DNA from: Hydrogenovibrio sp. SC-1
Lineage (GTDB): Bacteria > Pseudomonadota > Gammaproteobacteria > Thiomicrospirales > Thiomicrospiraceae
Direction: 5' to 3'
Assembly (NCBI RefSeq): GCF_002848135.1
Contig: NZ_PKGB01000006.1
Location: 1-64,000, forward strand
DNA: 64,000 nt
Translations under genes and position numbers: made by a program
The notes under the pieces: generated by a model
Seen by the model: the letters and a program-made list of their open reading frames with translations, nothing else
What the model was told of the DNA's origin: nothing
Database searches by the model: none
Shown: piece by piece, positions 25,996 through 53,990 of the stretch
Layout of the letters: every line of letters starts with the position of its first letter
Numbering within the stretch: position 1 is the stretch's first letter

Positions 25996-26015
25996 ATGTG
26001 GTTTAAGCTATCCTT

Positions 26016-27599: not shown

Positions 27600-27631
27600 T
27601 TAGGGGTCCTCTTGATTATTTCTATTGGAGG

Positions 27632-28831: not shown

Positions 28832-28833
28832 AA

Positions 28834-29211
28834 TTACGCCTCTTCTTTCACAAACGGTTGACCCGGTTCCCAATCAATATAAACCGAATCTTTTTCAGTT
28901 AGATGTGGTGCCTTGATAAACACCGCTTTAAAAGGGGTGTCGGTTTCATTTCGGAAATAATGGGCTTCGTTCGGATCACAGCGTAAATAGGTGCCGGGTT
29001 TGATTACCACTCTTTCACCATCCACATAAACGGCACACTCACCTTCCAATCCCAAAAAAGATTCTTCTTGTATGACATGTTTATGGCAAGGGTGATGTTC
29101 ACCAGGGGTAATTACTACTACACCTAAATCCACATTAGGCCCTGTCGTTAAATATTTGGGGCCGTGGGTTTCAAAGCGGTATTCGTGTTCGTTTTCGTGG
29201 GTCATATACAT
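28834..29211 (-). CDS. Single-domain cupin
   Basis: A 125-residue metal-type cupin. Motif 1 is HHPCHKHVIQEESFLGLEG, with the His-X-His and Glu metal ligands, and motif 2 is DPNEAHYFRN. The stop lies 2 bp before the aldolase start, so the two are translationally close. Cupins include sugar isomerases (lyxose isomerase, KdgF-like), which would complete an isomerase-kinase-aldolase set, but the fold also fits dioxygenases or sensors. Confidence 0.8.
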   Translation of the reverse strand: MYMTHENEHEYRFETHGPKYLTTGPNVDLGVVVITPGEHHPCHKHVIQEESFLGLEGECAVYVDGERVVIKPGTYLRCDPNEAHYFRNETDTPFKAVFIKAPHLTEKDSVYIDWEPGQPFVKEEA

Positions 29212-29314
29212 TGTTATACTCCATTGGCCAGTCCGAATTTGGCCAGTTATACGGTTAGACGTTTTATAAAGTTTACCATTTTAGTCGTGATGGTGATTGA
29301 TGCAAAATAGGGTA

Positions 29315-32300
29315 TTAATTGGCAAAGTCTTCAGGTTCATAGCCGAGATTAGGCGCCAACCACTTTTCGGTTTTTTCGATTGTCCACCCTTTGCGCACAG
29401 CATAGTCTTCAACCTGATCGCGTCCAATCGATCCCACACCAAAATAACGTGAGTCTGGGTGGGCGAAATAGGTGCCGGAAACCGCTGCCGTTGGGGTCAT
29501 GGCAAAGCTTTCGGTAATCTCTAAGCCGATTGTTTCATCTGGCTTAAGCAATGCCCATAAATTACCTTTTTCAGTATGATCCGGGCAGGCAGGATAACCC
29601 GCAGCAGGGCGGATGCCCTGATAACGCTCACGAATTAAATCATCATTATCGAGTTGTTCATCAGGTGCATAGCCCCATTCTTGTTTGCGAACCAATTCAT
29701 GCAGGGTTTCAGCAAAGGCTTCGGCTAAACGATCGGCCAAAGCCTTGAGCATAATAGAACGGTAATCGTCATGGTTGGCTTCAAAGGCGGCGATATGCTC
29801 ATCAATGCCGACGCCGGCTGTGACTGCAAAGAAACCAATATAGTCATCAACCCCGCTGCCTTTTTCGGCAATAAAGTCCGATAGGCAATTATTGGCACCG
29901 CCACGAGATTTATCGGCTTGTTGACGTAAATGATGGAAGGTATCAATCACTTCGGAACGTGATTCATCAGTATAGATTTCAATATCATCGCCCACACGAT
30001 TGGCAGGATAAAAACCATAAACTGCCTTGGCGGTCAGCCATTGCTCATCAACAATTTGCTGTAGCATTTCTTGAGCATCGGCGAATAACTTACGTGCTTC
30101 TTCACCCACCACCTTGTCATCTAAAATGCGCGGATACAGTCCGTGTAGTTCCCAAGACTGGAAAAAAGGCGACCAATCTATGCGTTTCACCAATTCAGAT
30201 AAGGGGAAGTCATTAAGCACTTTGTTGCCAAAGAAGGTCGGCTTAACGGGGGTGTAATTTGCCCAGGCCTGGTCAGTTAACGCTGGGTTTTGACGCGCTT
30301 GGTTAATGGAAACGCGTTTTACCATTTTGGCACGTGCCTTACGATCTTCTCGCACCTTTTCATATTCGGCTTTGATTTTAGCGGCAAACTCGGCTTTTTT
30401 ATCTCGTGAAATCAAGTTTTGTGCCACGCCCACCGCGCGGGAAGCATCCTTAACATACACCACAGGGTGATCATATTGCGGTTCAATTTTGACGGCAGTA
30501 TGGGCTTTAGAGGTGGTGGCGCCCCCGATCATCAGGGGTAAATCCATGCCGCGTTCTTGCATCTGTTTGGCGACATGCACCATTTCTTCCAAGGATGGTG
30601 TAATTAATCCAGACAGTCCTATGACATTGGCACCCTGCTCAATTGCGGTATCCAAGATTTTTTCGGCTGGAACCATCACTCCCAAATCAATCACTTCAAA
30701 ATTGTTGCATTGCAGCACTACGCCGACAATGTTTTTGCCAATGTCATGGACATCACCCTTAACGGTTGCCATGACGATTTTACCCTGTACCTGGCCAGAC
30801 GATTTTTCAGCTTCTAAATAAGGATCAAGGTAAGCCACCGCGCGTTTCATCACGCGCGCGGATTTCACCACCTGCGGTAAAAACATTTTGCCCGAGCCAA
30901 ATAAATCACCCACCACATTCATGCCGTCCATTAACGGACCTTCAATCACATTAATCGGTGCGCCCAGTTTCTGATACGCTTCTTCAGTATCTTCTTCAAT
31001 ATAGTCAGTAATGCCTTTGACCAGGGCGTGCTCTAATCGTTTTTCAACGGTGGTATCACGCCAAGCAGTGTCAGAGACTTTTGAAGCAACCTGACCATCA
31101 CCCCGGAAGGTTTCAGCTACTTCCAATAAACGTTCACCGGCTTCAGGGTCTTTATTTAGGATGACATCCTCAACGGCTAGGCGTAAGGCCTCTGGAATAT
31201 CATCATAAATGGCCATTTGCCCTGCGTTAACAATCCCCATGTCCATGCCTTCTTTGATAGCGTAGTACAGGAAGACCGAATGAATGGCTTCTCGCACGGG
31301 GTTGTTGCCGCGGAAAGAGAAAGAAACATTGGAAACCCCGCCGGAGATTTTGGCATAAGGCAGGTTGGCTTTAATCCAAGTCACGGCCTGAATAAAATCT
31401 AAACCGTAATTATTGTGTTCTTCGATTCCGGTGGCGACTGCGAAAATATTGGGATCAAAAATAATGTCTTGCGGTAAGAAGCCAACTTTGTCGGTGAGCA
31501 CGCGATAAGAGCGTTCACAAATTTCAATCTTGCGCGCCAGTGTATCCGCTTGACCTTGTTCGTCAAACGCCATGACAATCGCCGCGGCACCATATTTTTT
31601 CACCAATTTAGCATGATGAATAAAGGCCTCTTCGCCTTCCTTTAAAGAAATGGAGTTGACCACGCCCTTACCTTGAATGCACTTCAATCCCGCTTCAATC
31701 ACGTCCCATTTCGAAGAGTCGATCATAATCGGTACGCGCGATGCTTCGGGTTCTGAGGCTAATAAGTTTAAAAACTTCACCATACAGGCTTTTGAATCCA
31801 GCAAACCCTCATCCATATTGATATCAATAATCTGCGCGCCGTCCTCAACCTGTTTGACGGCAATATCAATCGCTTCGTTGTAGTTTTCTTCAATAATCAA
31901 TCGTTTGAATTTAGCAGAACCGGTGACATTGTTACGCTCGCCCACATTGACAAACAAGCTCTCTTCATCAATGTTTAATGGCTCTAATCCCGATAAACGA
32001 CAAACGGGTGCGATGGTTGGTCGTTGGCGAGCAGGAAAGGCTAAAGCGGCCTTGGCCATTGCCTCAACATGGTCTGGTGTTGTACCACAACAACCACCGA
32101 TAATATTAATCCAACCGTGCTCAGCCCAGTGTTTGATTTCTGCGGCCATTTGTTCTGGGGTTTCATCATACTCACCAAATTCATTGGGCAAACCGGCATT
32201 CGGATGAACCGACACATAAGCTTCACAAACACGGCTTAATTCTTCAACATAAGGGCGCAACTCTTCCGGACCCAAGGCGCAGTTAAGGCCAACAGAGAGG

Positions 32301-33034
32301 GGTTGTGCATGGGCAATGGCATTATAAAAAGCTTCGGTGGTTTGCCCAGACAAGGTGCGACCAGATGCATCGGTAATGGTGCCTGACAGCATGATCGGCA
32401 CTTCAATTCCTAACGCTTCTTCAACGGATTTCACCGCAAAAATAGCGGCTTTGGCATTGAGCGTATCAAAAATGGTTTCAATTAGAATGACATCTGAGCC
32501 GCCTTCCAGCAGCCCGTTCGTGGCCTGCTCATAGGCAGTGACTAATTCATCAAAATGGGTATTGCGTTTACCTGGATCGTTCACATCCGGCGAAATGGAT
32601 GCGGTACGATTGGTTGGCCCCAACACCCCGGCAACAAAACGGGGCTTGCCATCTTCATTTTCGGCTTGAATACAGGCTTCACGAGCAACGCGTGCGGCCG
32701 CGATATTAAGTTCTGTTACCTGATCCTGCATATCGTAATCGGCTTGGGCAATGGTGGTGGCATTAAACGAATTGGTTTCGATGATATCGACACCCTGGCG
32801 CAAAAAAGAGAGGTGAATGTCGCGAATCAACTGCGGTTGCGTCATTGCCAAAATATCGTTATTGCCTTTGATATCCATGTGATAGTCGGCAAAAAGCGTA
32901 CCCCGAAAATCTTCTTCTGATAGTTTCAGGTTTTGCACCATTGTCCCCATCGCGCCATCCAAGACCACGATTCTTTCTGCTAATAAGGATTTTAACTGGG
33001 CAATACGCTCACAACGATTTTCGGATTCAGACAT
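29315..33034 (-). CDS. metH: Cobalamin-dependent methionine synthase
   Basis: Transfers a methyl group from methyltetrahydrofolate to homocysteine through B12; 1239 residues. Domains in order: homocysteine/zinc domain (about 10-330, zinc motif [10 protein letters not shown]), pterin-binding domain (about 360-620), B12 cap and B12-binding domain with [14 protein letters not shown] (about 650-890), and the AdoMet reactivation domain (about 910-1230). It is complete. It is the first gene of a leftward run that continues with cupin, aldolase and kinase after a 103-bp gap. Copy 7 of the palindrome is at 30263. Confidence 0.97.
30263..30272. repeat. CCAGGCCTGG palindrome, copy 7
   Basis: Inside metH, near the start of the reactivation domain, where the minus strand reads Asp-Gln-Ala-Trp. 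Confidence 0.85.
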
Positions 33035-37302: not shown

Positions 37303-37821
37303 TTATTTGCTTGACGTCGTGGATCGATGGCCTTTTGCTTTACGGTGTTGAATATTTTGAAGCATCTCGCCATCCAATTCATAAGCTTGCGCAAACCCTT
37401 TTACAAAGTTGGCTTGGGTTGGCGTGAGTTCAAAAAGATGGAAGTCAGCTAAATTTCGTAAGACTGAAATCATTTCACCTAACTGGGCTTCCATCGCATC
37501 GATCAATTTTGACCAGTCTGCATCTGTTCGTTCTATTGCACGGGCTGAAACTTTGAGCGTTGCCCGTTTTCGTGCAAACAGGTCACTGGCAGTTTCTTCT
37601 GCTTCAATAAACAATAAACTCGCTGCTGGTGTCTTCATTAAATTATCGGTATGCTGTGCCAATTCAGAAATAAAAATATAGAAATGGCCATTTTGTTGGA
37701 GAATCGGCGCATAACTGGCATCAGGCGTGCCAGTCGCGTTGACTGTTGCTAAAATAGCCGATTGGAATGTTCCAATAAAGGCATGGAAATCATTGGCAAT
37801 TTGATTGAGCGCTGGTTTCAT
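37303..37821 (-). CDS. hugZ: HugZ-family pyridoxamine-phosphate-oxidase-like protein
   Basis: Split-barrel protein of 172 residues resembling HugZ, a haem-degrading enzyme of this fold. Recognisable are SAILATVNATGTPDASYAPIL near residue 22, SLLFIEAEETASDLFARKRATL and the C-terminal FVKGFAQAYEL. It diverges from the hmuUV genes across about 100 bp, and this supports a role in haem use. Only the fold is certain. Confidence 0.78.
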   Translation of the reverse strand: MKPALNQIANDFHAFIGTFQSAILATVNATGTPDASYAPILQQNGHFYIFISELAQHTDNLMKTPAASLLFIEAEETASDLFARKRATLKVSARAIERTDADWSKLIDAMEAQLGEMISVLRNLADFHLFELTPTQANFVKGFAQAYELDGEMLQNIQHRKAKGHRSTTSSK

Positions 37822-37927
37822 GGCATTCCAAAAGTTTACGACATTGAAGTTAGCAGGCTTAACTGTGAAAGGTTGCTTGCCAAGTTAACGCCAATTTTAA
37901 CGCAACAGCCGCTCCGAAGGAATGCCA

Positions 37928-38986
37928 TTGCTGACAGAATCTAACAACCCCCTATCAACTGTTTTGAAAAATCCACCCTGGTTGCTGTTTTGGCTTGGAG
38001 TGTTCCTTTTCGTTTTGGCTTTCTATTCCCTCTCAATTGGAGCCATGTCCATAACTCCTTATGACCTGTTGGCTAGCTTAATCGGTCAAGCAGATCAGCC
38101 ACAAACCGCCATGATTATCACCGAAATTCGTTTGCCACGGGTTGTTTTGGCAATTTTGGTCGGAGCAGGCCTGGGCATTTCTGGTGCCGCAATGCAAGGG
38201 TTGTTTCGAAATCCTTTAGCCGATCCGGGGTTGGTGGGCGTTTCCAGCGGTGCCGCTCTGGGTGCCGTAATGATAATTGTATTGGGAGCGACTTGGTTCC
38301 ATGGTTGGCTCAGTTATTTAGGTGCTGCCGCTTTACCCTTAGCCGCCTTTTTGGGAGGGCTGGCAGTGACCAGTTTAATCTATCGTTTGGCTACCCGAAA
38401 TGGTCGAACCGATGTGGGGTTGATGTTGCTGGCAGGGGTGGCACTTAATGCAATGTCAGGTGCTGCAATTGGACTTTTAAGTTATTTTGCTTCAGCCGAG
38501 CAATTACGCTCACTGACTTTTTGGAGCCTGGGATCCTTAGCAAGCGCGGATTGGTCTTCGATTAGCATGGTCTCTGTGCCCATCTTGTTGGCAGTCATTT
38601 GGTTGCCATTTTCAGCGAGAGGGCTGAATGCCTTTTTAATGGGTGAAGCGGTTTCAAAGCACATGGGGTATAACGTTAAGCAGCTTAAATGGATGGTTAT
38701 CGGCTTAACGGCATTAGCGGTGGGCGCGGCCGTTTCAGTCAGTGGTGTGATTGGGTTTGTTGGGTTAGTGGCACCGCATATTGTTCGATCCCTGACAGGA
38801 CCCGACCACCGATGGGTGATGCCTGGCAGTGCGCTGGTTGGCGCATTGCTGGTTTTAGGGGCTGATTTGATTGCACGTAGCCTACTCGCCCCGTCAGAGA
38901 TTCCGATTGGTATTATTATGTCTGCGATTGGTGGCCCTTTCTTTTTATGGTTGCTGATGCAGCGTCGACCGAGAGTAGGGTTTTAA
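37928..38986 (+). CDS. hmuU: Haem ABC transporter permease, probable TTG start
   Basis: FecCD-family permease with about nine to ten TM segments. Typical motifs are RLPRVVLAILVGAGLGISGAAMQGLFRNPLADPGLVGVSSGAALGA and GFVGLVAPHIVRSLTGPDHR. The AAGGA site at 37917-37921 touches the ATG at 37922, which is too close; the in-frame TTG at 37928 has proper 6-nt spacing, so I start there (352 residues). Haem rather than siderophore is inferred from the neighbouring hugZ. No binding protein (HmuT) or TonB receptor is nearby. Confidence 0.82.
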   Translation: MLTESNNPLSTVLKNPPWLLFWLGVFLFVLAFYSLSIGAMSITPYDLLASLIGQADQPQTAMIITEIRLPRVVLAILVGAGLGISGAAMQGLFRNPLADPGLVGVSSGAALGAVMIIVLGATWFHGWLSYLGAAALPLAAFLGGLAVTSLIYRLATRNGRTDVGLMLLAGVALNAMSGAAIGLLSYFASAEQLRSLTFWSLGSLASADWSSISMVSVPILLAVIWLPFSARGLNAFLMGEAVSKHMGYNVKQLKWMVIGLTALAVGAAVSVSGVIGFVGLVAPHIVRSLTGPDHRWVMPGSALVGALLVLGADLIARSLLAPSEIPIGIIMSAIGGPFFLWLLMQRRPRVGF

Positions 38987-39757
38987 ATGTTACGTACTCA
39001 TCACTTGTCAATTGAACTGAATCACCAATGCATCCTGTCAGACCTGGATATGACCTTTGCTCCCGGTAAACTTGTCGTTTTACTGGGGCCGAATGGCGCA
39101 GGCAAAACAACGCTGTTAAAAAGCCTAGCGGGAGATTTGATCGAGGCATTACCTCAAGTTTCCCTAGCCGGAGATTTTCTTGAAACCTATACGCCAGAAG
39201 TTCTGGCAACTCATCGGGCAGTCATGCCGCAGTCCATTCAATTGGATTTCCCTTTTTTAGTCTCGGAAGTGGTCGAAATGGGCTTGATTCAGCAGTTTTC
39301 CGTTTCTAGTCGGCAGAGTAAAGTGATGGAGGCGCTGTCTTGGTTTGATATGACAGAGCTGGCACATCGTAATTATTTAACGCTTTCTGGTGGCGAACAG
39401 CAGCGAGTGCAATTGGCCAGAGTGTTTGCGCAAATTGGTTTTCAACCCGAATCTGCCTGCCGATATTTATTGCTTGATGAGTGTACTGCCCACTTAGATT
39501 TAGCACATCAACACCAAGTGTTTAAATTGCTAAAAAACTGGGTTGCCCAGCGTGGGGTAGGCGTGATTATGGTGTTACACGATTTAAACTTGGCAGCGCA
39601 ATATGCCGATGATCTAGTTTTAATGCACCAAGGAAAATTGGTTTGCCAAGGGAGTGTGCAGCAGGTGATTACCGAACAGCACATTGCTCAGGTGTATGGT
39701 ATTGAAGTTCAGATTCACCAAAACTCTCATGGTTGGCCAATGGTTGCCCCTATCTAA
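38987..39757 (+). CDS. hmuV: Haem ABC transporter ATP-binding protein
   Basis: ATPase of 256 residues that powers the HmuU permease; it starts immediately after the hmuU stop. Walker A is LGPNGAGKTTLL, the signature LSGGEQQRVQLARV, Walker B YLLLDECTAHLD and the H-loop VLHDLNLAAQ. The family context (RAVMPQSIQLDFPFLVSEVVEMG) fits HmuV more than FecE. Confidence 0.87.
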   Translation: MLRTHHLSIELNHQCILSDLDMTFAPGKLVVLLGPNGAGKTTLLKSLAGDLIEALPQVSLAGDFLETYTPEVLATHRAVMPQSIQLDFPFLVSEVVEMGLIQQFSVSSRQSKVMEALSWFDMTELAHRNYLTLSGGEQQRVQLARVFAQIGFQPESACRYLLLDECTAHLDLAHQHQVFKLLKNWVAQRGVGVIMVLHDLNLAAQYADDLVLMHQGKLVCQGSVQQVITEQHIAQVYGIEVQIHQNSHGWPMVAPI

Positions 39758-39792
39758 TCGGTTTTGTAAGTTAGCGACAAGTCCGTTGTGGC

Positions 39793-42270
39793 TTAACCGT
39801 GAGTTTTGATAAAATCTTGGAACACCAAAAAGGGTAGGGGTTTTGAGAAAAAATAGCCTTGAATGTCATGACAGCGTCGTTTTTCAAAAAAGGCCAATTG
39901 CCTTTGTGTTTCTAATCCTTCGACCGTGACCTTCAAGTCAAATGTTTGTGCCAAAGCCATAATCGCATTGACCACCGCGACACTTTCGTTGGAGTCAGGC
40001 ACTTCATCAACAAAAGATTTGTCGATCTTGAGTCGAGTAATGGGCAGTTGTTGTAAGTAATTCATAGAAGAATACCCCGTACCAAAGTCATCAATGGCCA
40101 AATCAATCCCCATCTTTCTAAATTCCCCGAGTGTTTGAATAGCAGATTGTTCATTGGTAGCGATATAACTTTCGGTCACTTCTAGTTCCAGTGCTTCTGC
40201 AGGCATCTGGTTGGCATCTAAGCTATTTTGAACGGTCGTCAAGATATCGCTAAACTGCAATTGAATATTGGATACATTCACACTGAGCTGATTGAGCTTT
40301 AACCCCGCTTGTTGGAGAAGAGCCCAGTCAGCACAGGCCTGGTTAAGTACCCGCTGACCGATTTCAATAATGAGGTGGGTTTCTTCGGCAATTGGAATGA
40401 ATTCATCAGGACGAACTTGCCCAAGCATTGCGCTATTCCAGCGAAGGAGGGCTTCTGCCCCAACCACTTTTTTACTATGGACATCTATCTTCGGTTGATA
40501 GTGAAGATGGAATTCCGAGTCCTTTTTTAAGGCGAATTTAAGTGCTTGGATAATGTCACTGCGTCGTTCAATCGAGTCGGAGAGTTCTTTTGAATAGAAG
40601 CTAAAATTATTGCGACCATTGTCTTTTGCCATATACATGGCTAAGTCGGCATTTTTAGTCAAGGTCAGGGCATCTTTTCCATGGTCAGGATAAACGGCAA
40701 TACCAATACTGGTAGAAATATTAATTTCGTGTTCGGAGCATTTAAAAGGTTGATGAAATGAGTCGATAATAAGTTGAGCGATTTCTTCAAGTGATTCTCT
40801 GGAATGAAAGCGAGTGGTAAACACATTAAATTCATCACCACCGATTCTCGCGAGGCCATCGCTTTTTTGTAGCGTGTTATCTAAGCGGTTCGCCACCTTT
40901 TGCAAGAGTTCATCGCCAATATCATGTCCCAGCGTATCGTTAATTTGTTTGAATTGATCCAAATCTAAAAACAATAATGCTAAGGGGTGCGATTGGCGTT
41001 TAGCCAGTTTCAATGCATAGTTGAGTTCAAGACTAAATAAACTGCGATTCCCCAGTGTGGTTAACGAATCGTGGGTAGAAACAAATTCTAGGTGTTCATG
41101 GGAGCTTTTCAGTTCAGATTCACGGCGTTTAACGGTAGATGCCAACTCATTAATTTGAAAAGAAATATCTTCAAGCTCATCCCCTGTTTTGACCAGTGGC
41201 GTACTACTATAGTCGCCTTGCTTGATTTTATTGATTTGTCGCATCAGCGAATCGATAGGGTTTGATAGGCGGGCTTTAAGGAACTGGTATGCCGTTAAAA
41301 GTGCGACAGAAATAATTAATAATAAAAATAAAATTAATTGTTGGCGATTATCCGACAAGGTTTGGTTTAAAAAGGTTTTGTCCCACTCTAGCAATAAATA
41401 AAGAGGCGTATCCTCTGTGGTGAGGTTGTAGATAGCTTGGTAGCCTTGGTGTGACTCAGTAAAGTTGGTATGTCGTTGCTTTGCAGTCAGTAACGGCTGG
41501 GAAAGGAGCTTATATTGCGGATTAGTTGAAATTGACAAGTTGACATTGAGTTCTTTTGAAACCGTTTCAAAGTAGCTTGCATTTAAACGACTTGCCATTT
41601 CAATATGAGCTAGGGTCTCTTTTGAATGGTCTTTAAAAATACTTTCGTGTCCAATAATATATAGGCTGCTATCGAGAAAGTGATAAGTGGTTAGGCTGCC
41701 ATGTAGGAGTTGAGGCTGAGTGTAATATGAGAAGTGTTTAAACTTGATGGATTGAGGTGCTTCATAGGGATGTTTTTGGTAAGCGTCATCCAGTTCATGT
41801 TTACTAAAAAGCCATTTTTGGCCGTTTTCATAAGAAACAAAATTGAGTGTATAGCCATTTTTATTTTCATAAACAAAGGCAATTAATTCTTCATTGTGGT
41901 CATATAGAGAAATGTAGTGGTTTAACGCATTTTTAACCTTTTCCAGTAATAATTCGGCAATAATTTTCTTTTCTTCATCGAGCAAAATCGCATTGTAATT
42001 CTGTTTATCTTGGTAATTATTGACGAGAGAGATAGAAGCTTGCAGTGCTTGATCCTTGGAAATATAGTCAATCCCTTCTTCCAGTTTGGTCTGAGTATTG
42101 ACAATATCCGTAGCAACCCGGTTTTCTGCATACAGAAATTTTAATCGGGTTTGCTTTTCATAATTTTCTTTAAGAAAAAAATCAAAATACACGCCAATAA
42201 TACCCATGGTGGCCACAATCGAAATCAGGACGATAAAAGAGATTTTGGCGTTTAAAGAAGCTTTATTCAT
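39793..42270 (-). CDS. GGDEF-EAL c-di-GMP enzyme with periplasmic sensor
   Basis: An 825-residue inner-membrane protein. TM1 (about 10-30) and TM2 (about 315-338) enclose a periplasmic domain of about 280 residues that I cannot name. A HAMP linker (about 338-390), GGDEF domain (about 400-560, intact ARIGGDEF, no Arg-X-X-Asp inhibition site) and EAL domain (about 575-820) follow. The EAL domain looks active: GAEALLRW, LEVTES, DDFGTGYSSMNYL, KIDKSFV and EGLET. It lies 26 bp downstream of a periplasmic sugar-type binding protein, so that protein probably presents the ligand to it. Confidence 0.9.
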   Translation of the reverse strand: MNKASLNAKISFIVLISIVATMGIIGVYFDFFLKENYEKQTRLKFLYAENRVATDIVNTQTKLEEGIDYISKDQALQASISLVNNYQDKQNYNAILLDEEKKIIAELLLEKVKNALNHYISLYDHNEELIAFVYENKNGYTLNFVSYENGQKWLFSKHELDDAYQKHPYEAPQSIKFKHFSYYTQPQLLHGSLTTYHFLDSSLYIIGHESIFKDHSKETLAHIEMASRLNASYFETVSKELNVNLSISTNPQYKLLSQPLLTAKQRHTNFTESHQGYQAIYNLTTEDTPLYLLLEWDKTFLNQTLSDNRQQLILFLLLIISVALLTAYQFLKARLSNPIDSLMRQINKIKQGDYSSTPLVKTGDELEDISFQINELASTVKRRESELKSSHEHLEFVSTHDSLTTLGNRSLFSLELNYALKLAKRQSHPLALLFLDLDQFKQINDTLGHDIGDELLQKVANRLDNTLQKSDGLARIGGDEFNVFTTRFHSRESLEEIAQLIIDSFHQPFKCSEHEINISTSIGIAVYPDHGKDALTLTKNADLAMYMAKDNGRNNFSFYSKELSDSIERRSDIIQALKFALKKDSEFHLHYQPKIDVHSKKVVGAEALLRWNSAMLGQVRPDEFIPIAEETHLIIEIGQRVLNQACADWALLQQAGLKLNQLSVNVSNIQLQFSDILTTVQNSLDANQMPAEALELEVTESYIATNEQSAIQTLGEFRKMGIDLAIDDFGTGYSSMNYLQQLPITRLKIDKSFVDEVPDSNESVAVVNAIMALAQTFDLKVTVEGLETQRQLAFFEKRRCHDIQGYFFSKPLPFLVFQDFIKTHG

Positions 42271-42296
42271 GAATCGGTGCTTAAAGTGGGTTTGAC

Positions 42297-43211
42297 TTAA
42301 AATATAGGCTTGACGGAATTGACATTGGTTTTGTCAACAATTTTAACGGGGATAAAATAGTGCTTGGGAACGCTTTCCCCTGCTAGAATTTTAAGTGCAA
42401 ATTCCACGGATTTGTCTCCGCCCAGTGGAAATAACACCGAAGCGGTTTGTGTGTCGTTACGAATTGCCGTTTGCGCTTCACTGGTGTAATCACATCCGAC
42501 CGTAATTAGGTTTGACGGATCCTTATCAAATCGCTGTAACGCGCTGCGAACGCCACTGAGCATACTGTCGCTTTCAGAAAAGACTGCATCAACTTTTATA
42601 CCGTCTTTAAGCACTCCTTCCATTGCAATAATGGCATCACGGCGTAGATAGTTACCTGTACGTTTAATCACTTTAATCTTGGGGTATTTTGCCATTTCTT
42701 TTAAAAACCCTTCGCTACGCAAGTGCGTTACGTCTGCTGTTTGAAGGCCTTCCATTAATAAGACCTGACCTTGATAGTTGAGTTTTTTGGCAATGTACTC
42801 GGCTCCGAGCTGACCAATTTTGACATTGTCGGAGTTGATAAAACTGGTGTAATTTTCTGACTCAATACCTCTGTCTAAAATAATGACCGGAATCCCACTT
42901 TGATAGGCTTTGGTTACAACGGGAACTACGGCTTTGGCATCATTGGTGCCGACGATGATTAGGTCAACTTGCTGTTGGATAAAACGATCGATTTGATAAA
43001 TTAACAAAGCGGTTTTACCTTTTGCATTTGATGCAATAAACCGTAAATTGTGGTGTTTAGCAACAGCCGCTTTAACTTCATTAACTTGCGCTTTTCTAAA
43101 GTCGTTCGCCATATCATCTTGTGCAAAGGCAATGGTCTTGGGAGTGTCGGCCAAAGCGACATTTGGGAGGATGAAGATAAGCCAGAGTAGAGTGCGGTAT
43201 TGTTTTATCAT
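42297..43211 (-). CDS. RbsB/LuxP-like periplasmic binding protein
   Basis: A 304-residue exported protein (signal peptide to about residue 21, ending VALA) of the sugar-binding type I family (Peripla_BP_4). Family marks are IIVGTNDAKAVVPVVTKAYQSGIPVIILDRGI, FINSDNVKIGQLGAEYIAKKL, VDAVFSESDSMLSGVRSAL and VGCDYTSEAQ. Ribose, galactose and AI-2 binders (RbsB, LsrB, LuxP) belong here. No permease or ATPase is adjacent; the only partner is the GGDEF-EAL sensor downstream. It is therefore more likely a signal receptor than a transporter part. Confidence 0.87.
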   Translation of the reverse strand: MIKQYRTLLWLIFILPNVALADTPKTIAFAQDDMANDFRKAQVNEVKAAVAKHHNLRFIASNAKGKTALLIYQIDRFIQQQVDLIIVGTNDAKAVVPVVTKAYQSGIPVIILDRGIESENYTSFINSDNVKIGQLGAEYIAKKLNYQGQVLLMEGLQTADVTHLRSEGFLKEMAKYPKIKVIKRTGNYLRRDAIIAMEGVLKDGIKVDAVFSESDSMLSGVRSALQRFDKDPSNLITVGCDYTSEAQTAIRNDTQTASVLFPLGGDKSVEFALKILAGESVPKHYFIPVKIVDKTNVNSVKPIF

Positions 43212-43488
43212 GGTAGCCCCTTTACTTTTTTTGTACCAATCTTACCTGAGAATTGTATCTTAAAGGTGTAGCTTTGGTTGCCTTATTTTGAATGGACACC
43301 TGTGTTTTAGAGCTTCGGCTCTTGTTCAAATAATTAACTTGTTAAGTTTTTCTTAAGTCGGTGTGCTGATAATTACGCTTTAAAATCAATGAACATGCAA
43401 CCTTGTGTGTGTTTTCTTAACTTCTGCCTTATCGACCTCGTTGGTTTGGCGCTTGTTAAAGTTTAAAATCAATCTCAAGAAGAATGCT

Positions 43489-44232
43489 ATGAAAAATAAA
43501 CGGAATCTATTGAACGCACCAACCGGTCTAAGCGCGTTTTTTGCCAAGCTATTAACGGTTCGTACTAAGGATGGTCCTATGAAAGGTGGGCGCTGGTCAC
43601 TAAAAGCGGGCGGTAAAATCTTTCGAGTGATTCAAGGACGCTATGAGGTGGATCAAACCCAAGCGTTTGTCAAAGAAGTCAAGCCGGGAGATTGTTTGTT
43701 GGATGTTGGTGCCCATGTTGGCTGGTACAGCTTATTGTCTTCCCGTCTGGTTGGATCACAAGGTAAGGTGTTGGCGGTGGAGGCCAATCCGCGAAACTAT
43801 TGGTACCTTAACCGTCATATTCAAATCAATGCAGATACCGATAATATTGATGCAATTCATCTCGGGGTTGCCGATCAAAAAGGCGTATTGCAATTTGAGG
43901 CGGGAACCGGAACCGGCACGGGCCATCTGGCCGAAGGTGATGCAGAGGACGCGGTGCAGGTGGCAACCGACCGTTTAGATAATCTGATTGCAGATCGTCA
44001 GTGGGAGCCAACCCATATTAAAATTGATGTTGAAGGCGCTGAAGTGATGGTGTTAAAAGGTGCGGAGCAGGTTCTTAAATCGCATAAGCCGCTACTTTTT
44101 CTTTCAACCCACGGCGAGACCATTAAGCAAGATTGCATGGCGTTTTTGTCCGAGTTGGGTTATCAGTTTGAAACCATGGCTGGTAAGGCCGTGACGACTG
44201 AAAAAGATTTTATTTGTCGCCACCTTTCGTAA
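43489..44232 (+). CDS. FkbM family methyltransferase
   Basis: AdoMet-dependent methyltransferase of 247 residues; I choose the ATG at 43489 because of AAGAAG upstream and because the first 28 codons of the longer frame look random. The AdoMet motif is CLLDVGAHVGWYSLLSSRLVG, followed by VLAVEANPRNYWYL and the FkbM-specific HIKIDVEGAEVMVLKGAEQVL. FkbM enzymes methylate sugars or small hydroxyl groups; the substrate is unknown. Confidence 0.88.
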   Translation: MKNKRNLLNAPTGLSAFFAKLLTVRTKDGPMKGGRWSLKAGGKIFRVIQGRYEVDQTQAFVKEVKPGDCLLDVGAHVGWYSLLSSRLVGSQGKVLAVEANPRNYWYLNRHIQINADTDNIDAIHLGVADQKGVLQFEAGTGTGTGHLAEGDAEDAVQVATDRLDNLIADRQWEPTHIKIDVEGAEVMVLKGAEQVLKSHKPLLFLSTHGETIKQDCMAFLSELGYQFETMAGKAVTTEKDFICRHLS

Positions 44233-47074: not shown

Positions 47075-49555
47075 ATGTTAATCAAAACAAAATTAAATAT
47101 TTTGTCCGGGGTGATCGTGTGTCTAATGGTCGCCAATCTTGTTGTAATTGATTATTCAATCCAACATGCTCAAGAGCTAGAACACACTCGAGCGGTGCTT
47201 GAAGAAATTCAAATTCATCAACTGCAATTAAGAAAGCATGAAAAAGACTTTCTAGCCCGTCGAAATATCAAATATCGTTCAAAGTTTGAACAGACCTATC
47301 AATCTTATCTAGCCGCCTTAAAAATCCTTGAACAAGCCATGGAGAAGCAAGGCTTTGATCAAGTGAATACTGATCAATTAAAGCGTTATTTTTCCGTGTA
47401 TTCAGACCGGTTCCACAAATTGGTTTCCGCATATGAAGTCGTCGGGCTAGATGAAAAATCCGGTTTGCAAGGGGAACTCAGAAAACGGGTACATGAAATT
47501 GAAAAAACCATTAAGAGTCTCAATCAGCCCCAATTGTTGGCGGATACCTTAATGTTGCGTCGTCGAGAAAAAGATTTTTTATTGCGAATGGATCCGAAAT
47601 ATTTGGATAAATTTAATCAGGATTATGTCGTCTTTAGTGAACACATGTATTCCGTTGGTATCTCTGCCAAACTGACATCACAACTTCAGACTGAGCTGGA
47701 TGCCTATCGACAAGCATTTACCGATATGGTTAAGGGGTATCAAGCCATCGGGTTTACCGAAGTGCAAGGCTTTCGGGGGGAAATGCGCCAGACCATTCAC
47801 CAAGTGGATGGTGAGCTAGAGCAATTTCATCATGCATTTGTAGAGGCGATAGATGAGAAAATTGAGGCCTTTTATTTACTGCTGATGGTTTTATATCTCA
47901 TCCTAGCAGGCCTGGTGATTATTGCGCTCCTTTTGGTGGTGCAAAAAATCTCTAGAAGTACCCAAAAACTGACCAATGTCTTTGAAAATCTACAACAGAA
48001 CTATGACTTTTCAATCCGCAGTGACTTGGATGATCAAGATGAATTAGGACAGGTCGGTCATGTATTGAATGGGCTGTTACAGAATTTACAGCATGCTTTT
48101 GATGAAATTAACACGGCAACCACTGCGCTAGAAAAAGGCGCGTTTGATCAAAAAATTTCGGGAGAGTATCGAGGTGACTTGGCAACATTAAAATCGGGTG
48201 TTAATGGTTCGATTGATAATATCAAGAACGTGATGTGTCAGCTCAATAATACCTTAAATGCACTATCAGAAGGTCGGTTTGACGAAGAGGTTGAACTCTC
48301 GGCCGAAGGGCATTATCGACAAATGCTTGAAAAAACAGCAGGAGTCATGATCCAGCTAAATGGCATTATTGCCGATATTAATGGTGTGATGGCGCGTGTG
48401 AATGATGGGGACTTTAATGGTCGCATTGAAACCGATGCCCCAGGTGATTTAGGCGAGATGAAACAAGGTATTAATTTATCACTGGAGCATATTGCGGAAG
48501 CCATTGATGCAATCAGTCATGTGGTGGCGGCTCAGGCCGCGGGAGACTTAACCGTTAAGTTGCCAGATGGTAAGTTTAAAGGTCAGTTGCATGATTTAAA
48601 AAATGCCATTAACTACTCATTAAATAAAATGTCGGAAGTGGTGGAAGTGGCTTCTCAGGTCTCCAAAGAAGTCAGTCTAGCCGCTCAAGAAGTTGCTCAA
48701 GGTTCGAATAGTCTCAGCCAGCGTGTGCAAGAGCAGGCGGCTTCCTTGGAGCAAACCGCCTCTACGATGGATGAAATGACCAGTCAACTGAAACACTCTA
48801 CCGATAATGCCCAACAGGCAGCGGGATTGGCACAAGAGGTACAGGGAAAAACTCAAAATGGCGAGCAAGTCATGCAAGAGACCATTGCAGCCATGCAAGA
48901 AATTGAGGAATCTAGTGGTCGTATTTCAGAGATAGTGAATCTGATTGATGGCATTGCATTTCAAACCAATTTATTGGCACTGAATGCTGCGGTGGAAGCT
49001 GCCAGAGCGGGCGACCATGGCCGTGGGTTCGCGGTGGTTGCCGGAGAGGTTCGTAATTTGGCTCAGAAATCGGCCGAAGCAGCTAGAGATATTAAAGGAC
49101 TCATTGAGCAGAGTGGTGATAAGGTTAGTCAAGGATCGCAACTAGCCAATCGTTCTGGCGAGGTATTAAAGGAAATTCATGCCTCAATTGTGGATATGAG
49201 TCAAATGGTTCAGCAGATCGCGCAAGTGTCACGCGAACAAGCGGATGGCATTGGACAGGTGAATCACGCCATTGTCCAAATTGATAATGTGACGCAACAA
49301 AATGCCGCTCTGGTGGAAGAAACTTCGGCATCTTCTGAGAACTTAAATGGTCAAGCTGCCAAACTGAAACAGGAAATGGATTTCTTTAAGACGACCCGTG
49401 ACGTTTCAATGCCATCACTGGCCTCTTCCAAGGGTCAAGCTCAAGCCAAATTAGCCGCAAAGCCTGCTAAACAAAATTTGAGCTCGGTTTCTGCTGTTGC
49501 TAAGCCGTCGGATTCGGTCAGTACACCGACGGATACGGAATGGGAAGATTTCTAG
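47075..49555 (+). CDS. Methyl-accepting chemotaxis protein with HBM sensor
   Basis: An 826-residue chemoreceptor. The periplasmic part is a helical bimodular (HBM) domain with the repeated motif [17 protein letters not shown] (about 54-70) and [17 protein letters not shown] (about 166-182). TM1 is about 10-28 and TM2 about 270-292. Two or three HAMP-like units follow, and the signalling tip is [20 protein letters not shown]. It ends in EWEDF, a pentapeptide of the type that tethers CheR/CheB. HBM receptors studied elsewhere sense organic acids. A receiver gene follows directly. Confidence 0.92.
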
Positions 49556-49580
49556 GGTGGTTCAAACACCTTTTCCGGCT

Positions 49581-49937
49581 ATGAAACTGCTATTAGTTGA
49601 TGACAATGCCATGATGCAAAAAATACAAAGTACCATTTTGCAAAAACTGGGTCATCAAACTTCAGTGGTCTCTAGCGGCCAACAAGCGCTAGAGGTGCTT
49701 TCTCGTCAAACATTTGATTGTATTGTGATGGATATGCAAATGCCCGATATGGATGGATTGGAAACCACGCGACGAATTCGGCAAAGTGGCAATCAAACTC
49801 CCATCGTTGCCTTAACCGGTAATGATGATGGCGCTTCCAGGCAGGCTTGTCGCCAAGCAGGAATGAATGGCTTTTTAACCAAGCCTTTGCAGACTTCTCA
49901 GGTTTCTCAGGTATTGGGTGGGATTAAACGAGGATGA
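49581..49937 (+). CDS. Single-domain CheY-like receiver
   Basis: A 118-residue stand-alone receiver domain: MKLLLVDDNAMMQKI, phospho-acceptor Asp in IVMDMQMPDMDG, then VALTGNDDG and the Lys in FLTKPL. The domain resembles the receivers of hybrid kinases more than classical CheY. The start is uncertain: an in-frame GTG at 49557 lies just behind AGGG. It follows the chemoreceptor by 25 bp and precedes a GGDEF-EAL gene, so it may link the two. Confidence 0.82.
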   Translation: MKLLLVDDNAMMQKIQSTILQKLGHQTSVVSSGQQALEVLSRQTFDCIVMDMQMPDMDGLETTRRIRQSGNQTPIVALTGNDDGASRQACRQAGMNGFLTKPLQTSQVSQVLGGIKRG

Positions 49938-49963
49938 TATCTCGTGATTCTTAGGCTTTATTA

Positions 49964-51961
49964 ATGAAAATCATGCGTTTTTTTTTACTGCTGCTCTTCC
50001 TGTTAATTAGTTATAGCGCGGCCATTGAAGTTTACTACTTTCAGAAACTAAAAGACCAAATTGCAGAAATTGCATTTGACCATCTTGAAGAGGACCTATT
50101 AGAGCTGACAGAAGATATTTCTATATTGATTTCTGATGCTCGTAATACCAATAAAATTTTTAAACAAATGAATTGGGTTGTTGTCAATAATCAGTTTGTT
50201 GATGAAGTCGTTATTCAGTCGCCAGCTGGGATTATTTATACCACCAATGCAAAGTTGATCCTGCCGGATTCTGATGCCCACTTGACGCTAGAGCAAGCCC
50301 GGATAGCACCCCAGAAGCTGTTTAATGAAAACCGAATACTCAGTCACCAAACCCCTGTGCAAACACGCAATGGTTCCTCCAGTTTTAGGGTTAGTTTTAA
50401 GACAAATAACCAAAACTATCAAGCCTTATTAGCGAAGCGGGTAGAGGCCTTTATTTTATTTTTCATTTTGCTACCCTTCATTAGCGTGGTGGTCTTTATT
50501 GCATTTCTTCGACGCTATATTGTCTTGCCGTTGAACCGGCTGGAGTCGTATGCATTCAACCATGACCAAGTTTTACCCCATTTCCTGATTGGAGAATTTA
50601 ACTCCATTTATATGTCAATGAAAAAAGCCTTTTCCGGCTTGGAACAAGATCGACAACGGTTGTTCCAGCAGGTTCGAAGTGATCGATTAACCGGCCTCCC
50701 AAACCGATTAGCGCTCAAAGAATATCTTGGTATACAGGTGGCTCAAGCTCAAAAATCTCAATCGGCTTTTGCATTGTTATTCTTGGACTTTGATAACTTT
50801 AAATTTATTAATGACTCTCTTGGCCATGATAAAGGGGATGATATTGTTGCTTGTGCAGCTGAAGTCTTGCAGTCGCAGTTACCCAGCAATGGTTTTATTG
50901 CCAGAGTTGGTGGTGATGAATTTGTCATTGTTATTCCAGACTATCAATCTCAGACGCAGCTGGAGGTGTTAACACAGACATTGATCGATACCTTATTAGG
51001 GCTCAATGATTGTTGTCAGGCAGGCACACCGGTGAGCTGTTGTATTGGCATCGCCTGTTATCCGACGCAAGGCAAAAATTATATTGAGTTAATGCAGAAA
51101 GCCGATATTGCCATGTATGAGGCAAAGCGTCAGGGCAAAGGTCGTTATCATTTCTATTCACCTGAGCTCAATGATCGGGTACAAAAGAATATTGCTTTGG
51201 ATCAGTCAATGCGACAAGCATTACAGAATAAAGAGTTTGTTTTGTATTACCAACCTAAAATTGATTTGAAGACGAAGACCGTGGTGGGTGCTGAAGCCTT
51301 AATTCGTTGGATTAAGGCGGATGGTGAGGTCATTTCACCGGCAGATTTTATTCCCATTGCCGAATTAAATGGGTTTATTGTCCAACTGGGAGAATGGGTA
51401 TTAGAGGCCGCTTTTTTGCAACTTCAACTTTGGGCGAAACGCATGCCGGATTGTGTGTTGTCGATTAATGTTTCAGCACGGCAGCTAGCTGAACCGGGCT
51501 TTTGCGAATATCTGAAATCGTTATTAGTTAAGTATCAACTTGACCCAAGTAAAATTGACTTGGAAGTCACGGAATATTTATTCTTTGATCACTCGGTCGA
51601 CAATTTGAAAACAGTCAATGATATCAGAGCGATGGGATTCTCTATCTCATTGGATGACTTTGGAACGGGGTTTTCATCCTTATCTTATTTGAAGAAATTT
51701 CATGTTGATCAGATTAAAATTGATAAAAGCTTTATTGATGACTTTGACTCAGAAAGCGGTGCTATTTTTATTGAAACCATTGTTAAAATGAGCGAAAGCC
51801 TTAAAAAACAAATTATTGCTGAGGGTGTTGAAACCGCTTCTCAAGCTGAATACCTGCAATCGGTTGGTTGTATTAATGTACAAGGCTTTTTCTTTTCAAA
51901 GCCATTACCCTTGCCAGAATTTGAGCGGTATTACCAAAAACACAAGCCCGCTGTCCTTTAG
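49964..51961 (+). CDS. Membrane GGDEF-EAL c-di-GMP enzyme
   Basis: A 665-residue protein. TM1 (about 4-22) and TM2 (about 163-183) flank a short periplasmic region of about 140 residues, followed by a GGDEF domain (about 245-400, SDRLTGLPNRLALKEYL, intact RVGGDEF, no inhibition site) and an EAL domain (about 415-660). EAL residues look complete: GAEALIRW, LEVTEY, DDFGTGFSSLSYL, KIDKSFI, EGVET. It may act as cyclase, phosphodiesterase or both. It heads a run of three cyclase genes on the same strand. Confidence 0.9.
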   Translation: MKIMRFFLLLLFLLISYSAAIEVYYFQKLKDQIAEIAFDHLEEDLLELTEDISILISDARNTNKIFKQMNWVVVNNQFVDEVVIQSPAGIIYTTNAKLILPDSDAHLTLEQARIAPQKLFNENRILSHQTPVQTRNGSSSFRVSFKTNNQNYQALLAKRVEAFILFFILLPFISVVVFIAFLRRYIVLPLNRLESYAFNHDQVLPHFLIGEFNSIYMSMKKAFSGLEQDRQRLFQQVRSDRLTGLPNRLALKEYLGIQVAQAQKSQSAFALLFLDFDNFKFINDSLGHDKGDDIVACAAEVLQSQLPSNGFIARVGGDEFVIVIPDYQSQTQLEVLTQTLIDTLLGLNDCCQAGTPVSCCIGIACYPTQGKNYIELMQKADIAMYEAKRQGKGRYHFYSPELNDRVQKNIALDQSMRQALQNKEFVLYYQPKIDLKTKTVVGAEALIRWIKADGEVISPADFIPIAELNGFIVQLGEWVLEAAFLQLQLWAKRMPDCVLSINVSARQLAEPGFCEYLKSLLVKYQLDPSKIDLEVTEYLFFDHSVDNLKTVNDIRAMGFSISLDDFGTGFSSLSYLKKFHVDQIKIDKSFIDDFDSESGAIFIETIVKMSESLKKQIIAEGVETASQAEYLQSVGCINVQGFFFSKPLPLPEFERYYQKHKPAVL

Positions 51962-52006
51962 ATTAAAATAACAAATACAAAAATAACAAAAAATGAGCAC
52001 TCTACC

Positions 52007-53941
52007 ATGACAAGTCAACGACTCTATTTCCGTATTTTGGCGTTTGCCATTCCCTTAATTTTGATATTGATTAGTTTTCACCTAATGGATAAAAAACTGG
52101 TCCGTGATCATTGGCAGCAGAATATGCAGTTTTCAGCGATACAGATGAAAGACAAGCTCACAAGTGAAGTTGAGGGTGTGATTGCTGATGTGTTGGCGAT
52201 TGCGAAAGATTCTGCTCAAATTGAACTGGTTGCGGAAGGTAATTTACAAAGTCTGCAATCCCGCTTTATAGCGTTGTCACAGCATAAAAATCGTTATGCG
52301 CAAGTCCGTTATATTGATGAATCAGGCCAAGAAAGGGTTCGGGTCGATCATCAAAATGGCGCCCCTGTTGTTATTGAGTCTGATCAGCTTCAAGATAAAA
52401 GCAATCGATATTATTTCCAACAAAGTCATCAGATGCCTTCTGGAGGGCTCTATGTGTCTCCATTGGATTTAAATGTTGAACAAGGCCAGATTGAGCGCCC
52501 GCTAAAGCCAATGATTCGGTTTGCTTCACCAGTAGTGGATGTGGCAGGTCATCATCTTGGCATTATCATTATTAATTATCGTATTGGCGATGTTCTGAAA
52601 TTATTTGAAGTGCCGCACCCAGAATCTGACGGTGGTAATTTATTATTACTCAATTCTAAAGGTTATTGGCTAGCCGGTGGGGATCCTGATAAACGTTGGG
52701 GAAATATGTTTGGCCATCGGCATAGTTTTGCGGAAGAAAGACCCAATAGTTGGGGCTATATAAGCGCCTTGTTGGATCAAAAGCAGTTTGTGTGGCAAGC
52801 AGATGGTTATTTCTATGCTGCGACAATCTATCGAGAAGCGGATTACATTCTTTCGCTAGCCAACGAGATGGACACCTCCCTTGTTAAGACGGATGATCCT
52901 TGGTTTGCGGTAGTCAGTGAAACAACACCTGAGGAGATGTTTGCAGGTGCTTATCAAAGACTACTGATTGCAGGTGTATTGGTTGCCATTTTGATCGTTG
53001 TGAGGGGGGCTGCAATGAACTATCTACGTAAAATAAAAAATAAAAAACATGTTGCACTCGCCCACGCAAAACGCATGACACAAATTGTTGAGCAAACATC
53101 GGACTTTGTGTTTATTACCGACCTGGATGGCAAAATTGAATATGTTAACCCGGCGTTTTGTGATGTGACAGGTTATGACAAACACAAAATCTTATCGAAA
53201 CAACCGTCTATACTGAAGTCAGGACGTCACCCCCATAAATATTATGAGAATCTTTGGAACACCATCAAGACCGGAGGGACTTTTCGAGGCATGATGATCA
53301 ATCGGCGAAGTGATGACAGCTTATTCTATGAAGAAAAAACCATTACCCCATTGATAAATGATGCCGGTAGATTAGAGGGATTTGTGTCCATTGGGAAAGA
53401 TGTCACCCAAAGCGAAATCACAAAAAATGCCTTTCACGATCCGCTGACGGGTTTGGTGAGTCGAAGTTTATTTGAGGATCGGTTGGCCCATGAAATCGAA
53501 CAGAGTCAGCGTTTAGGGACGCATTTAGCGCTGCTGTACTTGGATTTAGATGGTTTTAAACAGGTCAATGATACCTTGGGACATCAGGCAGGGGATGATA
53601 TTTTGATTGCTTTTTCAGAGTTTTGTCTATCAGTGGTTCGTAAGAGTGATACGGTGTCACGGCTGGGTGGTGATGAATTTGCCATTTTAATGACCGGATT
53701 TAACCAATCATCAGATGTTGAAGCGTTAGCGACTAAATTAATTGAAAATATTCAGGATTCGTATTGGTGTCCAGATAACTGCAGTGGAACTCTTGGTGTG
53801 AGTATCGGGATTAATCTTTACTCAGCTGAGCAATCCGATATCGACCCTAAACAGTTTATGGCACAAGCGGATCAAGCCATGTATGTGGCCAAGAACGCAG
53901 GCAAAAATCAATATGCGTTATATACTGAATCAAATATCTAA
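52007..53941 (+). CDS. Cache-PAS-GGDEF diguanylate cyclase
   Basis: A 644-residue inner-membrane enzyme. TM1 (about 10-27) and TM2 (about 318-336) enclose a large periplasmic Cache-type domain (YAQVRYIDESGQERVRVD, then DKSNRYYFQQSHQMPSGGLYVSPL). A PAS domain (about 358-470, with FITDLDGKIEYVNPAFCDVTGY) and a GGDEF domain (about 480-640) follow. The active site RLGGDEF is intact, and the RKSD inhibition site is present, so product feedback is expected. It lies 45 bp after the preceding GGDEF-EAL gene. Confidence 0.9.
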   Translation: MTSQRLYFRILAFAIPLILILISFHLMDKKLVRDHWQQNMQFSAIQMKDKLTSEVEGVIADVLAIAKDSAQIELVAEGNLQSLQSRFIALSQHKNRYAQVRYIDESGQERVRVDHQNGAPVVIESDQLQDKSNRYYFQQSHQMPSGGLYVSPLDLNVEQGQIERPLKPMIRFASPVVDVAGHHLGIIIINYRIGDVLKLFEVPHPESDGGNLLLLNSKGYWLAGGDPDKRWGNMFGHRHSFAEERPNSWGYISALLDQKQFVWQADGYFYAATIYREADYILSLANEMDTSLVKTDDPWFAVVSETTPEEMFAGAYQRLLIAGVLVAILIVVRGAAMNYLRKIKNKKHVALAHAKRMTQIVEQTSDFVFITDLDGKIEYVNPAFCDVTGYDKHKILSKQPSILKSGRHPHKYYENLWNTIKTGGTFRGMMINRRSDDSLFYEEKTITPLINDAGRLEGFVSIGKDVTQSEITKNAFHDPLTGLVSRSLFEDRLAHEIEQSQRLGTHLALLYLDLDGFKQVNDTLGHQAGDDILIAFSEFCLSVVRKSDTVSRLGGDEFAILMTGFNQSSDVEALATKLIENIQDSYWCPDNCSGTLGVSIGINLYSAEQSDIDPKQFMAQADQAMYVAKNAGKNQYALYTESNI

Positions 53942-53990
53942 CACCTTTCAATCCTATTGAATTTTGCATGAGATTCGTTAGGAAAAGGTA

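Follow-up and report, generated by a model that had tools for sequence, protein, structure and literature searches.

A sugar-type periplasmic binding protein paired with a GGDEF-EAL membrane sensor in Hydrogenovibrio sp. SC-1: a probable two-gene receptor unit for c-di-GMP signalling

What does a sugar-type periplasmic binding protein do beside a membrane enzyme of cyclic diguanosine monophosphate (c-di-GMP) turnover? The question is raised by a gene pair in the DNA analysed here, a stretch of 64,000 nucleotides from Hydrogenovibrio sp. SC-1 (contig NZ_PKGB01000006.1, positions 1 to 64,000; hereafter the window), in which the gene of an RbsB-fold binding protein lies 26 bp upstream of the gene of a GGDEF-EAL membrane sensor on their common minus strand. 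This arrangement had been pointed out in a preliminary description of the window, and both Pfam and the coordinates confirm it (Table 1). The linkage of the two genes, their co-distribution, the failure to find a CUT2-type (sugar-type) permease in the genome, and exchanges of the sensor's output domain together indicate that the binding protein signals to the c-di-GMP enzyme and does not serve an importer. We therefore consider it likely, by analogy, that the pair forms a two-gene receptor unit in which the binding protein gates the enzyme in the manner of NspS-MbaA. The unit is real and recurrent; control of c-di-GMP enzymes by binding proteins is known, and what is novel is a binding protein of the sugar type.

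Table 1. Features of the gene pair and of the importer genes next to it (window coordinates; aa, amino acids; TM, transmembrane segment)
Feature	Coordinates	Strand	Basis
RbsB-fold periplasmic binding protein, 304 aa, sensor-linked subfamily	42297..43211	-	Pfam Peripla_BP_4 6.5e-47
Putative Sec signal peptide, ~aa 1-21 of binding protein, without lipobox	43149..43211	-	translation, by eye
Membrane sensor, TM - periplasmic domain - TM - HAMP - GGDEF - EAL, 825 aa	39793..42270	-	
PERI, periplasmic double-CACHE-like domain, sensor aa 26-312; candidate docking domain	41335..42195	-	AF2 (AlphaFold 2) model
HAMP domain, sensor aa 332-379	41134..41277	-	Pfam 2e-6
GGDEF domain, sensor aa 399-555, RIGGDEF intact	40606..41076	-	Pfam 2.2e-48
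EAL domain, sensor aa 577-811	39838..40542	-	Pfam 4e-65
FecCD-type permease	37922-38986	+	Pfam
ABC ATPase	38987-39757	+	Pfam

The N-terminus of the binding protein, as read from the translation, is hydrophobic and signal-like, and the motif FAQDxxxND[FW]RxAQ marks the subfamily to which the protein belongs. Hydropathy peaks of the sensor at aa 4-22 and 312-330 leave ~285 residues between the two TM segments, which bears out the large periplasmic region ascribed to it earlier; this stretch gave no Pfam match in the window sensor (E 0.01). By motif reading, the catalytic motifs of the sensor (RIGGDEF, EALLRW, DDFGTGYS, and VEGLE) are canonical and intact, and the RxxD I-site of its GGDEF domain reads QKSD, an inhibitory site that is dispensable for activity. 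A promoter and terminator scan of positions 39600-43600 gave counts close to the shuffled expectation (10 versus 9.0 and 4 versus 3.7), so we claim no operon boundary, and Rfam gave no match in 39500-43900.

Membership of the subfamily was defined by a score of at least 330 bits to profile A4 (three other matches of that scan score 172-219), which gave 44 binding proteins at 43 loci in 39 genomes, with the surroundings read. At 42 of the 43 loci, the binding protein is accompanied by a linked sensor whose periplasmic domain is homologous, a pairing that exceeds chance, and at 38/43 this sensor lies directly downstream on the same strand, at -4 to 165 bp. The other linked sensors are found 318 bp downstream (L069), behind an NMT1-like binding protein that sits between the subfamily binding protein and the sensor (L031), or divergent, with an NMT1-like protein present too (L074 and L075). 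L040 has the same genes as L012 and was counted once with it among the four loci found with the single window protein. We also note that, at L028:4242-8724, two tandem subfamily binding proteins lie upstream of one kinase sensor.

Searches with the window protein or the profile gave matches in 4/62 genomes of the family and 12/370 of the class and, by order, in 13/20 (order of G271), 2/48 (G437), and 11/54 (G423). In the phylum sample, 19/397 genomes pass 1e-50, but members above 330 bits occur in only 4; 17 of the 22 listed places, in 16 genomes (one also holding members), score below 220 bits, and among these the surroundings were read for L064 alone. At that locus (L064:4862-10186, in G437), a 219-bit binding protein is flanked by an SBP_bac_1-type protein on one side and by a kinase bearing a TorS sensor domain on the other, which makes a TorT/TorS-like unit with two binding proteins. 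Of two low scorers from the class search, L038 has a leucine-rich repeat protein downstream and no recognised sensor, and L039 has an ABC ATPase and a BPD_transp_2 permease, with an enolase downstream. A weak second match in G011, which is among the four matched genomes of the family (L011, 47.8 bits), is the binding protein of a second type of unit (L015), to which we return below. Relatives also occur in metagenome genomes of Candidatus Sulfurimonas ponti and Rhodocyclaceae, a spread that suggests transfer between distant groups.

The periplasmic domain follows the same distribution when searched for alone with a PERI profile (E<=1e-12; class search with the binding protein at E<=1e-30). The profile matched 11/370 class genomes, and these coincide with the 11 that encode the binding protein; in the twelfth genome of the class search (G389), the gene of an RbsB-like protein is instead preceded by those of an ABC ATPase and a BPD_transp_2 permease. 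In the order of G423, PERI matched 11/54 genomes, again the ones matched by the binding protein. Hold-out profiles built without the 7 weakest rows, or without 14 loci (the 11 of the class sample and L012-L014), recovered 7/7 and 14/14 sensors, all at 63 bits or more, which indicates that the PERI homology is no alignment artefact and that the sensitivity of the search is fair.

The host genome, rated 100% complete at 2.45 Mb in 41 contigs, encodes two Peripla_BP_4 proteins at E<=0.01, the window protein and that of L005, and just two BPD_transp_2 permeases at the same threshold. The genes of both permeases share an operon with those of a formamidase, a Peripla_BP_5 binding protein, and, judged by translation, two ABC ATPases. 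Because both permeases sit with Peripla_BP_5 and the formamidase, neither resembles a CUT2 sugar permease, and this BPD_transp_2 search (E<=0.01) found no CUT2-type permease in the operon or the genome. The preliminary description had named a distant ABC transporter using the binding protein as the result that would tell against its reading; the genome search gave none of the CUT2 type. Further, the window binding protein scores below the RbsB equivalog cut-off (105 bits versus 337).

The output domains of the 42 linked sensors comprise 25 GGDEF-EAL and 15 histidine kinase outputs, with two sensors cut before the output domain. The GGDEF-EAL count includes L036, which is split over two open reading frames (ORFs), and L069, which is cut by a contig end; some kinase calls were made by Pfam, and L043, L065, L067, and L068 were so assigned for their resemblance to the L042 kinase. 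Judging by a fragment on a separate contig (L090), the cut sensor L072 may be a hybrid kinase. The motifs RxGGDEF and EALxRW are present in 25/25 GGDEF-EAL partners and DDFG in 23/25, the two misses being one split and one cut ORF. The best binding-protein tree (42 members and 4 outside rows, as in alignment A6, leaving out L057 with its over-extended ORF and L031 with its truncated 5' end) has five changes between GGDEF-EAL and histidine kinase, and its strongly supported branches force three; the three outgroup rows of this tree do not form one clade, and the L005 branch is very long. The clade of 11 around the window protein contains eight GGDEF-EAL partners, two hybrid kinases (L042 and L043), and one cut sensor. 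Thus, the earlier description of a unit without a kinase holds at the window locus but not in the close relatives L042 and L043, which carry the receptor on a hybrid kinase, and the family thereby offers natural domain-swap pairs in which to study how a docking event is coupled to different outputs.

The AF2 model of PERI (predicted local distance difference test score (pLDDT) 90.5, predicted template modelling score (pTM) 0.86) has a double-CACHE-like fold, with 2p7j (Z 13.2) and 3lid/3lie (Z 12.8) as best matches. The LuxQ structure 3c38 matches at Z 10.2, with 4.3 Å over 183 residues, which is rank 48 and below many double-CACHE domains. The Pfam families LuxQ-periplasmic and dCache_1 were absent from the matches of the window sensor and 13 singly scanned sensors, and they were not among the 25 of 28 Pfam families listed for A2, a set of 19 proteins (17 PERI sensors, the L005 sensor of the second unit, and the unrelated L038 protein), single members of which match CHASE4 or dCache_3 weakly. 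Conservation in alignment A5 (41 sensor rows; L072, whose sensor is cut, is absent) peaks in a helical stretch before the sheet, where Y86 and K101 occur in 41/41 rows and D98 and E100 in 95%, with weaker peaks at Y123, S146, G221, and L260 (85-88%). The pattern in the helical stretch is consistent with a role of these residues in docking.

With regard to the ligand, the AF2 model of the binding protein (pLDDT 94.5) is nearest in Foldseek to 2x7x, the fructose-binding domain of BT1754, and then to ribose-binding 2ioy, and by Z it is 2ioy that comes first (35.8) and 2x7x seventh (34.0). Profile comparison also gave BT1754 (2x7x) as the closest solved relative (208 bits), with RbsB and YtfQ-type proteins near. 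The 50 fold matches listed include neither LuxP nor LsrB, although this does not prove them different. The pocket comparison proposed in the preliminary description was run for RbsB and LsrB at the positions that we take to form their pockets (in LsrB, K35, D116, D166, Q167, P220, and A222). Six of the 11 RbsB positions are kept (N36, F38, D113, R114, R165, and D241), one is changed conservatively (F164 to Y188), and four differ (F16 to R39, N64 to G88, N190 to S214, and Q235 to F261); given these four contact positions, ribose as the ligand is doubtful. R39, R114, R165, and D241 are present in 42/42 aligned members, D113 in 13/42; R114, R165, and D241 are common to RbsB and YtfQ but not LsrB, and the aromatic-Arg pair F38-R39 (W-R in 30/42) matches YtfQ, BT1754, and galactofuranose-binding 6hbd. 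Two of the six LsrB positions are the same (alignment A7), namely D116, which corresponds to D113 and is found in RbsB too, and D166, which corresponds to D160 and is found in neither RbsB nor YtfQ; the other four differ (K35 to D32, Q167 to V161, P220 to E213, and A222 to D215), and the LsrB equivalog score is 18.6 bits against a cut-off of 384. LamB-type porins beside 4/43 loci in the stretches fetched (L034, L041, L068, and L075), and beside the second unit of the host genome, point to a sugar as the probable ligand. Our guess from these sequence comparisons is a furanose-form sugar, and autoinducer 2 (AI-2) is not favoured, being the less likely ligand. From the earlier proposal of AI-2 or a related sugar, we prefer a sugar to AI-2, with BT1754 and RbsB as nearest relatives and four of six LsrB positions different.

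We considered whether the binding protein might instead be a leftover or shared solute receptor of a distant importer, its GGDEF-EAL neighbour being incidental. Beyond BT1754, its nearest solved relatives are mostly binding proteins of transporters, and an orphan copy exists at L029; however, with the same sensor domain at 42/43 loci, matching genome sets in two samples, and no CUT2-type permease found in the genome, we regard this as very unlikely. The preliminary description had stated that no ABC permease or ATPase is adjacent, which has to be corrected: a FecCD-type permease and an ATPase, though not of the sugar type, are convergent to the sensor gene and end 35 bp from its stop. The same-genus ortholog L012 has similar-sized, similarly oriented ORFs at this place. 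At window positions 37303-39757, a PNPOx-fold protein adjoins the permease and ATPase, and no cognate binding protein was recognised beside them. That this importer is the true partner, with the GGDEF-EAL gene regulating iron- or heme-related behaviour, would be in keeping with its position next to the pair and with the PNPOx-fold protein beyond. We find it scarcely credible, as FecCD importers work with another binding-protein family, not Peripla_BP_4, the importer is convergent, and in close relatives other genes adjoin the sensor, namely an Lnb_N protein gene in L027 and, in L041, an unannotated short ORF followed by a kinase gene.

Several observations do weigh against a signalling partnership of the binding protein and PERI. 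The binding protein of L029 has no sensor nearby, in a genome that holds another pair, and in the order of G423 a PERI kinase at G874:C49 (L089) has no binding protein beside it. As the sensors behind the PERI profile had themselves been located with the help of the binding protein, matches of the profile in those genomes are expected, and what carries information is that the remaining sampled genomes lack it. Distance-matrix correlations back a coupling of the binding protein to PERI only weakly (rho 0.80, versus 0.75 for the binding protein and the catalytic domains): the partial rho over 25 pairs is 0.51 versus 0.34, a modest gap, thinning to 18 pairs gives 0.42 versus 0.33, and PERI and the catalytic domains reach 0.47, about as high as the binding protein and PERI. 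Moreover, double-CACHE domains often bind small ligands directly, as described for AI-2 and YeaJ or rpHK1S-Z16 in excerpts of PMC9637222 and PMC8846402, and PERI, whose fold is of this kind, could by analogy sense a ligand by itself, the binding protein merely delivering or modulating it. Since dCache_1 is missing among the Pfam matches listed (single A2 members do match dCache_3 or CHASE4 weakly) and the strongest conservation falls in the helical stretch, which fits docking but is no proof of it, we hold direct sensing by PERI to be quite improbable. A LuxPQ-like receptor, with AI-2 as the signal sensed by the binding protein and the GGDEF-EAL protein under its control, also deserves attention. 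LuxS and an autoinducer-2-kinase-family protein are encoded in the genome, which keeps AI-2 open but does not point to the receptor; AI-2 is presumably furanose-like, and the two matching LsrB aspartates include D160. Excerpts of PMC8846402 and PMC9637222 further describe diguanylate cyclases under AI-2 control through double-CACHE/GAPES1 domains. The fold and profile matches to BT1754, RbsB, and YtfQ-type proteins, the low LsrB score, the invariant R114, R165, and D241, and the differing LsrB positions nevertheless argue against it, and the setting of LsrK beside MetH and a class II aldolase would suit cytosolic handling of 4,5-dihydroxy-2,3-pentanedione (DPD) without a receptor; we consider an AI-2 receptor unlikely.

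In the receptor unit that we favour, the secreted RbsB-fold protein would capture a small sugar-like ligand in the periplasm, and one of the two states of the protein would dock on the double-CACHE-like domain of the sensor. Docking would rearrange the sensor dimer, and the change, relayed via TM2 and HAMP, would shift the balance between c-di-GMP synthesis by GGDEF and degradation by EAL. With NspS-MbaA as the model, the ligand-bound binding protein would promote synthesis and the free sensor degradation. According to excerpts of PMC8967002, norspermidine-bound NspS favours synthesis, MbaA without NspS degrades c-di-GMP, and the MbaA motifs read SGDEF and EVL, in contrast to the two canonical motifs of the window sensor. 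The window pair shares with this Vibrio cholerae system a periplasmic binding protein beside a membrane GGDEF-EAL enzyme and, by analogy, would share the gating of the enzyme, with c-di-GMP as output. The binding proteins themselves differ, NspS being a polyamine-binding and presumably PotD-type protein and the window protein an RbsB-type protein of Peripla_BP_4. An NspS-MbaA homolog is known in Sinorhizobium meliloti.

Other known systems resemble the window unit in part. LuxQ is a kinase that senses AI-2 through LuxP, and the likeness lies in the RbsB fold of the binding protein (which we take to hold for LuxP) and in a two-TM sensor with a periplasmic tandem PAS/CACHE region; the window sensor has no LuxQ Pfam match, and the fold likeness is at a general level only. 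Membership of LuxP/LuxQ is unsupported, with no LuxQ-periplasmic family among the Pfam matches listed for the sensors and the LuxQ fold match only at rank 48. The part of the preliminary description that had the binding protein signalling to a c-di-GMP enzyme is supported, and its LuxP/LuxQ and AI-2 parts are not. In TorT-TorS, too, a hybrid kinase presumably has a type I binding protein beside it, but the TorT models score 31.3 and 23.8 bits on the window protein against cut-offs of 200 and 310, and the low-scoring L064 was the one place where a neighbouring TorS-type sensor domain was seen. BT1754, a Bacteroides hybrid two-component fructose sensor, is the closest solved relative, shares the aromatic-Arg motif, and is itself a receptor domain; unlike the window protein, this domain is part of the kinase protein and not a separate soluble protein, and its output is two-component and not c-di-GMP. 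A Vibrio parahaemolyticus system, whose proteins we take to be ScrB and ScrC, is also a c-di-GMP system activated by a binding protein, and differs in what are presumably another binding-protein family and a three-gene quorum arrangement. By the features tested, the window unit belongs neither to NspS-MbaA nor to LuxPQ.

The portions of the literature covered describe few cases of a c-di-GMP enzyme gated by a soluble binding protein: NspS-MbaA, the V. parahaemolyticus system cited with it (PMC9602780, PMC11113362), and ArtI, a putative arginine binding protein required for arginine sensing by a Salmonella cyclase (PMC8846402). In the excerpted text of a census of c-di-GMP sensors (PMC8846402), SBP_bac_3 is the sole member of the periplasmic-binding-protein clan studied in such networks and the sugar entry is a phosphotransferase system (PTS) route; NspS goes unmentioned in that text, so the census is incomplete for soluble binding proteins. 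The parts of the open-access literature searched yielded no system in which a GGDEF protein is partnered by a binding protein of the RbsB or sugar type, which is weak evidence of absence. If the sugar-type reading is true, the sugar would act as a signal and not as food, given that the host yielded no importer to match the binding protein. Further, an RbsB-type and an NMT1-like protein accompany one PERI sensor at 3/43 loci (L031:3822-8019, L074:1-4117, and L075:2463-8586). We tentatively raise the possibility, which we would not yet favour, that PERI is a dedicated dock for two unrelated binding-protein folds, so that a single sensor could respond to two ligands, with the output, c-di-GMP or phosphorelay, exchanged in evolution.

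Other signalling genes of the host deserve mention. The LsrK-like kinase reported earlier (window 26016-27599) scores 841 bits on the NCBIfam autoinducer-2 kinase model (cut-off 528), in agreement with its first description. It stands in a run with class II aldolase, MetH, and a TauE-type exporter (window 25207-33034), and LuxS is encoded on the same contig; a CUT2/Lsr-type permease was not found. The function of this run may lie in processing, within the cytosol, DPD that the cell itself makes, and not in taking up AI-2. A second, separate binding-protein/PAS-GGDEF unit of the host genome lies on contig C33 (L005:301-4968), where the end of a Peripla_BP_4 gene overlaps a PAS-GGDEF membrane protein gene downstream, a LamB porin gene comes next, and a sucrose-phosphate synthase gene is nearby. 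Five relatives of the L005 protein occur in four other class-sample genomes, and four of the five (54-62% identical) are followed by a protein with a homologous N-terminal region, which is a GGDEF-EAL protein in L083 and a kinase in L084, L085, and L086; the fifth (L087, 38% identical) is without such a partner. Finally, window positions 47075-55352 hold a run of chemoreceptor, GGDEF-EAL, sensor-PAS-GGDEF, and CZB-GGDEF genes.

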